Part shown: positions 35,503 through 38,043 of the stretch, piece after piece
Layout: each line of letters opens with the position of its first letter
How positions within the stretch are numbered: the stretch's first letter is position 1
Origin: Pseudomonas sp. PDNC002
GTDB lineage: Bacteria > Pseudomonadota > Gammaproteobacteria > Pseudomonadales > Pseudomonadaceae
Reading direction: 5' to 3'
Assembly (NCBI RefSeq): GCF_016919445.1
Contig: NZ_CP070356.1
Span: 1,557,501-1,621,500, forward strand
DNA: 64,000 nucleotides
Translations under genes and position numbers: made by a program
Notes under the pieces: model-generated
Told to the model about the DNA's origin: nothing
Seen by the model: only the letters and a program-made list of their open reading frames with translations
The model's database searches: none

Positions 35503-36849
35503 GTGTTGAAGAAACTTGCTGTACTGCTGATGGCGGGGGCGTGGGCCCTGCCGGCGCAGGCGAAAGTCGATGCCACCGAGGCCGCTCGACTGGGCCGCGA
35601 CCTGACGCCCATGGGGGCGGAAATGGCCGGCAACGCCAGCGGCACCATCCCCGCCTGGACCGGCGGCATCACCACCGCCCCGGCGGGTTACCAGCCCGGC
35701 ACCCATCACCTCGATCCGTACGCTGGCGACGCCATGCAGTACAAGATCGACAGCAAGAACCTGGCGCAGTACCAGGCGCTGCTCACGCCCGGCACCCAGG
35801 CGCTGCTGCAGGAGAACCCGGACTACTACCTGCGCGTCTTCCCCAGCCGCCGCAGCGCCTCGCTGCCCCAGCGCATTTATGACGCCACCCGCTTCAACGC
35901 CGAAAACGCCGAGCTGATCGCCGATGGTAACGGCGTGCAGGGCGCTGCCGCCGGTGTGCCATTCCCGATGCCGAAGACCGGCCTGGAAGTCATCTGGAAC
36001 CACATCATGCGTTACCGTGGCGAGCAGATTCACATGGTGACCAACCAGGCCGCCGTGCTCGCCAGCGGCAGCTACAACCTGCTCAAGCTCGATCGCTACG
36101 TGTACTTCAACTACGGCCGCGAGGGCATGACCCCGCAGGACCTGAACAACACGCTGTTCTACTACAAGTACAACATCGTCGCCCCGGCCAAGCTCGCCGG
36201 TTCCGCGCTGGTGGTGCAGGAGACCATCGACCAGGTGCTGTCGATCCGCAAGGCCTGGCGCTTCAACAGCGGCGAGCGCCGCGTGCGCCGCCTGCCGAGC
36301 CTGGCCTACGACACCCTGCAACCGGACACCAACGGCCTGGCCACCGCCGATACCGTGGATGTCTACAACGGCGCGCCGGACCACTACGACTGGCAGCTGC
36401 TGGGCAAGCGCGAGATGCTCGTGCCATACAACAGCTACGCGGTGCACCAGAAGGGCATTCCCTACGCGGATATCCTCAAGACCAAGACGCTCAACCCCGA
36501 GCTGCTGCGCTACGAGCCGCACCGCGTGTGGGTAGTCGAGGCGACCCTGCGCAAGGGCATGAACCATCCGTTCGCCAAGCGTCGTTTCTACCTGGATGAG
36601 GACAGCTGGCAGATCCTTGCCTCGGATATCTACAACGCCGACGGCAAGCTGATCCGTGCCCAGGAAGTGCACCCGATCAACTACTACGACGTGCCCATGG
36701 TGCTCAGCACCCTGGAAGCGCTGTACGACTTCGAGGGGGCGCGCTACTTCGTCGACGGCCTCGACAACAACGAGCCGATGTACGACTTCAAGGTCCCGCT
36801 GGGCCCGCGCGATTTCACCCCGCAGGCCTTGCGCCGCGAGGGGAACTGA
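35503..36849 (+). CDS. DUF1329 exported protein, 448 aa
   Basis: A member of the DUF1329 family, which adopts a LolA/LolB-like beta fold and is common in pseudomonads, often near RND or hydrocarbon genes. A signal peptide covers residues 1-20 (MLKKLAVLLMAGAWALPAQA). Blocks seen are TPMGAEMAGNASGTIPAWTG, PGLEVIWNHIMRYRG-like and YKYNIVAPAKLAGSALVVQE. The last 20 codons are the first unit of a five-copy tandem array downstream, so the gene's C-terminus can exchange with cassettes (inference). AAAGGAG precedes the start. Role unknown; periplasmic lipid or envelope handling is a family guess. Confidence 0.92.
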   Translation: MLKKLAVLLMAGAWALPAQAKVDATEAARLGRDLTPMGAEMAGNASGTIPAWTGGITTAPAGYQPGTHHLDPYAGDAMQYKIDSKNLAQYQALLTPGTQALLQENPDYYLRVFPSRRSASLPQRIYDATRFNAENAELIADGNGVQGAAAGVPFPMPKTGLEVIWNHIMRYRGEQIHMVTNQAAVLASGSYNLLKLDRYVYFNYGREGMTPQDLNNTLFYYKYNIVAPAKLAGSALVVQETIDQVLSIRKAWRFNSGERRVRRLPSLAYDTLQPDTNGLATADTVDVYNGAPDHYDWQLLGKREMLVPYNSYAVHQKGIPYADILKTKTLNPELLRYEPHRVWVVEATLRKGMNHPFAKRRFYLDEDSWQILASDIYNADGKLIRAQEVHPINYYDVPMVLSTLEALYDFEGARYFVDGLDNNEPMYDFKVPLGPRDFTPQALRREGN

Positions 36850-37718
36850 GTCCAGCAGAGGCCGCCGCGAGGCGGCCTCTGCTTTTGGGGCGTGCCTGTG
36901 CACGCCGATCGCGGACAAGGTCCGCTCCTACGAAAAGCGTCGGACCTGTGGGGGCGGACCTTGTCTGCGATGCTTCAAGGTCCCGCTGGGCGCGCGCGAC
37001 TTAACCCCGCAGGCCTTGCGCCGGGAGGGTAACTGAGTCGAGCAGAGGCCGCCGCGAGGCGGCCTCTGCTTGTGGGGTGTGCCTGTGCACGCCGATCGCG
37101 GACAAGGTCCGCTCCTACGAAAAGCGTCGGACCTGTGGGGGCGGACCTTGTCTGCGACGCTTCAAGGTCCCGCTGGGCGCGCGTGACTTAACTCCGCAGG
37201 CCTTGCGCCGGGTGGGTAACTGAGTCCAGCAGAGGCCGCCGCGAGGCGGCCTCTGCTTTTGGGGTTTGCCTGCATACGCCGATCGCGGACAAGGTCCGCT
37301 CCTACGAAAAGCGTCGGACCTGTGGGAGCGACCTTGTCCGCGATGCTTCAAGGTCCCGCTGGGCCCGCGCGATTTCACCCCGCAGGCCTTGCGCCGCGAG
37401 GGTAACTGAGTCCAGCAGGGGCCGCCGCGAGGCGGCCTCTGCTTTTGGGGTTTGCCTGCATACGCCGATCGCGGACAAGGTCCGCTCCTACGAAAAGCGT
37501 CGGACCTGTGGGGGCGACCTTGTCCGCGATGCTTCAAGGTCCCGCTGGGCGCGCGTGACTTAACCCCGCAGGTCTTGCGCCGGGAGGGTAACTGAGTCCA
37601 GCAGAGGCCGCCGCGAGGCGGCCTCTGCTTTTGGGGCGTGCCTGCACACGCCGATCGCGGACAAGGTCCGCTCCTACGAAAAACGTCGACTTGTAGGAGC
37701 GGACCTTGTCCGCGATGC
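36787..37718 (+). repeat. Five-unit tandem array: gene tail + terminator + REP
   Basis: Units begin at 36787, 36974, 37161, 37347 and 37533 and measure 187, 187, 186, 186 and 186 bp. Each holds 63 bp equal to the last 20 codons and stop of the DUF1329 gene, the terminator hairpin, and a REP-like palindrome (GCGGACAAGGTCCGCTCCTA and its inverse GGGCGGACCTTGTC). All five tails keep the reading frame and stop. Units 1 and 4 carry GGGCCCGCGCGATTTCACC; units 2, 3 and 5 carry GGGCGCGCG(C/T)GACTTAAC. In the REP part, units 1-2 and 3-4 pair instead. This gap holds no other gene. Confidence 0.95.
36854..36886 (+). terminator. Terminator of the DUF1329 gene (repeated in every array unit)
   Basis: A 13-bp stem AGCAGAGGCCGCC/GGCGGCCTCTGCT with loop GCGA and TTTT. 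The same hairpin recurs in units 2-5, beginning near 37042, 37229, 37414 and 37601. Unit 2 has its T-run broken (TTGT) and unit 4 has a G in the left arm. Confidence 0.92.
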
Positions 37719-37746: not shown

Positions 37747-38001
37747 CTACTCGATCAACTCGGCGCCAAGCACCGTGGTCTCCGGCATGCGCATTGGCGC
37801 CGGGCTGATCTGCAGGTATTTGATGCTGTTGCGCGGGATGATCAGCAGGTCGCCGTCCACCTCGATGCTGATGACCGGCGATTCCATTTGCTTGCGGATG
37901 CCACGGGCTACTTCGGCGGGGTCGTCGCTCTGTTGCGGGAAGCGCAGGGCCAGGCGTTGGCCGTCGGCGAAATGCAGGTAGAGATGCTTGATCGGTTTCA
38001 T
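37747..38001 (-). CDS. Conserved hypothetical protein, 84 aa
   Basis: Unrecognised small soluble protein without signal peptide or membrane segment. It starts MKPIKHLYLHFADGQRLALR and ends PETTVLGAELIE, with mixed beta pattern. The start at 38001 has GGAGGA upstream; the in-frame codons further 5' are unlikely. A GCCGCCC/GGGCGGC hairpin at 37717-37733 is just past the stop. It is 42 bp after the DUF3392 gene and faces the tandem array. Confidence 0.75.
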   Translation of the reverse strand: MKPIKHLYLHFADGQRLALRFPQQSDDPAEVARGIRKQMESPVISIEVDGDLLIIPRNSIKYLQISPAPMRMPETTVLGAELIE

Positions 38002-38043
38002 GTGTCCTCCGGCGGTGGGGGCCAACCGCCGGAGGCACCGCGA

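Follow-up and report, generated by a model that had tools for sequence, protein, structure and literature searches.

A five-unit tandem array of a DUF1329 gene's coding end, terminator hairpin and REP pair in Pseudomonas sp. PDNC002

Downstream of a DUF1329 gene in Pseudomonas sp. PDNC002, the end of the gene is repeated five times in tandem. Every unit comprises the gene's final 20 codons with their stop codon, a terminator-like hairpin with a 13-bp stem, and two inverted GTAG-type REPs. We consider it probable that this array arose by REP-linked tandem amplification, in which the gene tails were carried as passengers, and that exchange between the units followed.

Layout of the array

The window (the whole stretch of 64,000 nucleotides that was analysed) was scanned with Tandem Repeats Finder, which reported an array at 36786-37718 with a period of 186, 5.0 copies, 93% matches and a score of 1600; the other five arrays in the window scored 52 to 59. 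Alignment of the units placed the array at 36787-37718, with units of 187, 187, 186, 186 and 186 bp starting at 36787, 36974, 37161, 37347 and 37533 and with a mean identity of 93%. The five-unit layout was thus confirmed, and the unit starts and lengths are those given in an earlier note on this DNA. The array sits between convergent genes, and its features are as follows.

35503..36849, + strand: DUF1329 gene, 448 aa (open reading frame and Pfam); unit 1 begins with its last 20 codons and stop
36787..36973, + strand: unit 1, 187 bp; the gene's true tail followed by a terminator hairpin and a REP pair
36854..36883, + strand: terminator-like hairpin in unit 1 (stem of 13 bp, loop of 4 bases), with counterparts in every unit
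36910..36931, + strand: first REP of unit 1, with identical copies from 37097, 37284, 37470 and 37656
36948..36969, - strand: second REP of unit 1, inverted and partly degenerate
36974..37160, + strand: unit 2, 187 bp; haplotype B orphan tail, broken T run after the hairpin
37161..37346, + strand: unit 3, 186 bp; haplotype B orphan tail
37347..37532, + strand: unit 4, 186 bp; chimera with a unit-1-like tail and a unit-3-like remainder
37533..37718, + strand: unit 5, 186 bp; haplotype B orphan tail, second REP near consensus, right edge equal to the single-copy edge of relatives
37693..37714, - strand: second REP of unit 5, inverted, an exact match to the REP pattern
37747..38025, - strand: convergent 92-aa gene without a Pfam family, 28 bp past the array

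The product of the gene at 35503-36849 (+) was assigned to DUF1329 (PF07044, E value of 2.8e-143), and its closest named relatives, at 97 to 98% identity, were from P. nicosulfuronedens, P. pseudonitroreducens and P. nitroreducens, which places the window in that group. The gene ends in TGA inside unit 1, and its open reading frame confirmed that unit 1 contains its true last 20 codons. The same note had given every unit a 13-bp-stem terminator and a GGACAAGGTCCGCTCC palindrome; the hairpin and the palindrome were indeed present in all five units, but a terminator scan scored units 1, 3, 4 and 5 and gave no score for unit 2, in which a G interrupts the T run after the hairpin. Beyond the single REP noted previously, every unit was found to carry a second, inverted and partly degenerate REP. 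The two REPs of a unit are oriented tail to tail (GTAG inward), and folding indicated that the pair of unit 1 can form a stem of approximately 25 bp and that the unit folds far better than shuffled sequences (z = -6.6). Despite this long hairpin, the pair is not the head-to-head doublet with GTAG outward, forming one hairpin, that defines a REPIN, and since the pair is tail to tail, it is called here a REP pair and not a REPIN.

Relatives and exchange between units

The gene tail and terminator were searched for in 25 genomes, including that of the strain itself, which left 24 congeners for comparison, with one genome per species. The tail was present at the locus in 18 of the 24, as a single copy each time, although three of these (G002, G005 and G012) matched across only part of it. 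Five congeners gave no tail match at all, and G014 gave just a terminator-like match elsewhere. The five-copy layout was not found in any of the 24 congeners examined. The comparison of copy number across related Pseudomonas that had been proposed earlier gave, between species, five units here against one in 18 congeners, which supports a tandem duplication that is associated with REPs and peculiar to this genome. Nine of the 18 tail-bearing congeners are single-contig genomes, for which collapse of an array during short-read assembly is unlikely, whereas such collapse may have occurred in the others.

The distance to the convergent gene, which was located by a motif, was 16 to 315 bp in 25 relative-locus rows (which include some genomes twice under two ids) versus 897 bp here, and with the patterns used, two REPs were found in 16 of these rows, one in 3 and none in 6. 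At two relative loci (L103 and L104), the single-copy order was tail, terminator, tail-to-tail REPs of other types, small hairpin and convergent gene, which indicates that the old edges are those to the left of unit 1 and to the right of unit 5. The left edge of the array lies 60 coding bases upstream of the stop codon, in unique coding DNA, the right edge lies approximately 3 bp outside the second REP, and the join between units has one shared base. Together with the single unit in relatives, this order shows a head-to-tail tandem duplication specific to the lineage. All five units are distinct, with 25 of 187 alignment columns variable and 9 to 16 differences per pair of units, which argues against both a very fresh event and a copying error in the assembly.

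The units have also exchanged segments. Unit 4 matches unit 1 at columns 19, 27, 30 and 51 of the alignment and matches unit 3 alone at columns 106, 115 and 170, and none of the aligned relatives has the T found at column 27. This mosaic shows exchange between units, in one direction or the other. In another array of the genome (L150:1788-2830), the last unit agrees with unit 1 in its tail haplotype and the intermediate units share another (GPEYT versus GPEYA), as in the window array.

REP arrays elsewhere in the genome

The REPs of the array are of the GTAG type, i.e., short GTAG-ended palindromes with a high copy number in the genome. In the genome, which is one contig of 6.39 Mb, the CGCGGANNNNNTCCGCTCCT pattern with at most one mismatch gave 361 forward and 338 reverse matches, compared to 1 and 3 for the reversed-pattern control, and the exact GTAG-ended form occurred 122 times in the forward and 107 times in the reverse orientation. 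The exact GGACAAGGTCC form was found at 229 places here and at 82 in the relative G009, versus 0, 1 and 0 in the single-contig congeners G006, G017 and G024, which suggests a rapid turnover of REP families within the genus.

Candidate loci were picked by regular REP spacing among the matches listed, and the resulting 21 loci, the present one included, are a sample and not a census. Nineteen of them were clean arrays, with units of 79 to 297 bp that were unrelated between arrays; the other two (L136 and L153) lacked a clean array with the REP period and fall outside the counts that follow, and no REP array was found at four more multi-REP loci (L130 to L133). The stop codon and last codons of a flanking gene were contained in nine of the 19 clean arrays, the genes being the following.

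L137: M20 peptidase
L140: PHO4 phosphate transporter
L142: histidine kinase
L147: GGDEF-EAL protein with a LapD-type domain
L150: Yip1 protein
L151: outer-membrane efflux protein
L154: HutD
L157: zf-HC2 protein
L158: DUF1329 protein (the window array)

A coding tail and terminator within one repeat had been described as unusual, a view that is not supported for the REP arrays sampled in this genome; an odd single array becomes a countable pattern, in which roughly half of the sampled arrays carry copied gene ends. Three cases are weaker, namely L137 (one 27-nucleotide orphan at 85%), L151 (a REP-encoded tail) and L157 (based on a pair of overlapping repeat rows), which leaves at least six of 19 as firm cases. 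A Pfam family was found in eight of the nine tail-array proteins checked, the 151-aa protein of L147 being without one. The L147 array (L147:1724-2922; G000:C1:2544523-2545721) has four units of approximately 297 bp and captures the tails of both convergent genes, with 49 codons of the GGDEF-EAL protein and approximately 7 codons of the 151-aa gene, and the stops are retained in three orphan copies. At L151, the last 25 codons of the efflux gene (L151:1761-1838, + strand; G000:C1:2766860-2766937) are encoded within a REP array of 125-bp units, by its first unit, and the efflux tail looks like a REP-encoded C-terminal extension. In G009, where this REP form has 82 exact matches, 6 of 10 loci were clean arrays (1.9 to 3.5 copies), and none of these six contained the stop of a flanking gene. 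Tail capture, with 9 of 19 arrays here versus 0 of 6 in G009, is therefore common in this genome but not general.

REP columns varied less than the other columns of the arrays. In 13 of the 19 arrays (L137, L139, L144, L155, L156 and L157 were left out), 34 of 600 REP columns were variable (5.7%) versus 296 of 1,655 others (17.9%), a difference of about three-fold for which the P value of 6e-15 is a guide only, the units within an array being related. The share was lower in REP columns in each of the 13 arrays. With the last units left untrimmed, some of them over-long, the shares in the same arrays were 15.4% and 19.4% (P = 0.025). Selection on the REPs or conversion between REPs would each produce such constancy.

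Explanations and known systems

In the account by REP-linked tandem amplification, the ancestral locus had one block of gene tail, terminator and tail-to-tail REP pair followed by the convergent gene, in the order seen at L103 and L104. A segment of it was duplicated head to tail in the lineage, with the edges and the single shared base observed, and the first break or template switch was most likely triggered by the REP hairpins. Since edges are not clearly tied to REP ends, the case for a REP trigger draws on the association of the arrays with REPs, and the candidate arrays were themselves selected by REP spacing. Once long direct copies were present, unequal exchange or replication slippage could have yielded five units and shuffled segments, as the chimeric unit 4 suggests. 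The gene beside unit 1 always retains an intact tail, and such arrays would therefore be tolerated. Orphan tails would then drift as passengers while the REPs are kept, as in the pattern observed, and the conserved terminator hairpin is a counterpoint to this passenger view, as it could reflect selection on the array. The six clean arrays of G009, none with a gene tail, also count against the account.

Alternatively, the array might be the work of a RAYT transposase that nicks at REP ends, strand transfer making tandem copies and carrying adjacent unique DNA along. The genome has two matches to Y1_Tnp (PF01797) over the cut-off. One of them is a RAYT-like gene with an HVH motif (L145:1096-1626, - strand; G000:C1, approximately 3672895-3673425) that has REPs of the same family on both sides, and the right edge of the window array, approximately 3 bp past a REP end, and the edges of several other arrays at REP ends would also fit. 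The second Y1_Tnp gene (L146), however, had no flanking REP by the search pattern used, the left edge of the window array is in unique coding DNA, and just 14 of the 38 edges of the 19 clean arrays lay within 5 bp of a REP end versus 10.1 expected (P = 0.11), which makes RAYT-driven copying an unlikely account. A rule that edges fall at REP ends was dropped on the same numbers; another set, which included L136 with its edges preset at its REPs and omitted L155, gave 16 of 38 versus 10.5 expected (P = 0.03) and was not relied on.

The array could also be a selected stack of predicted terminators and REPs insulating the two convergent genes; the earlier note had considered a stack of terminators before a convergent gene. 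Its location and the four units that score as terminators are consistent with this idea, and so is the low variability of the terminator hairpin and first REP (1 of 51 columns variable versus 24 of 136 elsewhere in the array; P = 0.002, in a post hoc comparison). Yet relatives manage with a single block or none, and the T run is broken in unit 2, and we regard selection for such a stack as unlikely.

The same note had also suggested a reservoir for C-terminal change, taken here to mean alternative C termini that recombination with the orphan tails would bring into the DUF1329 gene. Exchange has occurred, in that unit 4 has the tail of unit 1, in an uncertain direction. Compared to relatives, however, the orphan tails have four amino acid changes and three silent ones (one of these, at column 24, being of uncertain polarity): units 2, 3 and 5 share Pro to Ala and Phe to Leu, unit 5 also has Ala to Val, and unit 3 also has Glu to Val. 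The gene's own tail has silent differences only, all 80 relative tails keep the Phe that is altered in the three orphans, and none of the 80 has Ala at the Pro site. The conserved gene tail and the pattern of orphan changes led us to reject the reservoir as very improbable. An assembly artefact, although tandem repeats are error-prone to assemble, was rejected as scarcely credible because the five units are all distinct, and the genome is in one contig that contains many other arrays with unrelated units.

More broadly, REPs at gene 3' ends may be hotspots at which a neighbouring gene's coding end, stop and terminator are duplicated time and again into arrays, with the REPs in arrays nearly unchanged, the copied ends drifting, and inter-unit exchange rewriting the real gene tail from copies; we advance this tentatively and hold it to be doubtful as a whole. 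If it were true, partial duplications of gene 3' ends would commonly originate at REP loci throughout Pseudomonas. The arrays form a natural series for asking if REPs seed tandem duplication, why REPs in arrays resist change, and if exchange with decaying copies burdens the gene. They also serve as a caution that, at REP loci, short-read assembly may collapse arrays and annotation may record false gene fragments.

Enterobacterial BIMEs are mosaic clusters of inverted REPs near gene ends, the number of which can vary, and their units consist of REPs and short motifs and are not known to include gene tails. The window array is likewise a cluster of inverted REPs near a gene end, with gene tails in its units. 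Gene tails within REP arrays were not found in the literature searched, parts of which were available in excerpt, a negative result that carries little weight.

Tandem REP/REPIN clusters that take in flanking DNA have been described before, as the excerpts cited below indicate. Near-identical tandem units with REPs and flanking DNA make up the present array, and the genome holds several such clusters, 19 clean arrays having been found among the 21 sampled loci. In P. fluorescens SBW25, 16 ordered REPIN clusters are described as tandem near-identical REP doublets with flanking sequences (Bertels and Rainey 2011, PMC3116915), and both the tandem REP doublets with flanks and the RAYT genes in the genome have their likeness here. 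The REPINs of SBW25 are head to head with GTAG outward, in contrast to the tail-to-tail pair within the unit here, and the largest cluster reported in the available part of that paper has four REPINs, compared to five units here and up to approximately seven in the largest other arrays of this genome (PMC3116915). Gene ends inside the repeated flanks, which are present here, are not mentioned in the same excerpt (PMC3116915). GTAG-type REPs, single or paired, are known to form large tandem clusters that include flanking DNA, the length of which varies (Di Nocera and co-workers 2013, PMC3733652). As far as the available text of that work goes, repeated coding tails with stop codons, seen here, are not stated for these clusters, and the present array resembles them in its tail-to-tail dimers, in its position near a gene 3' end and in its location between convergent genes (PMC3733652).
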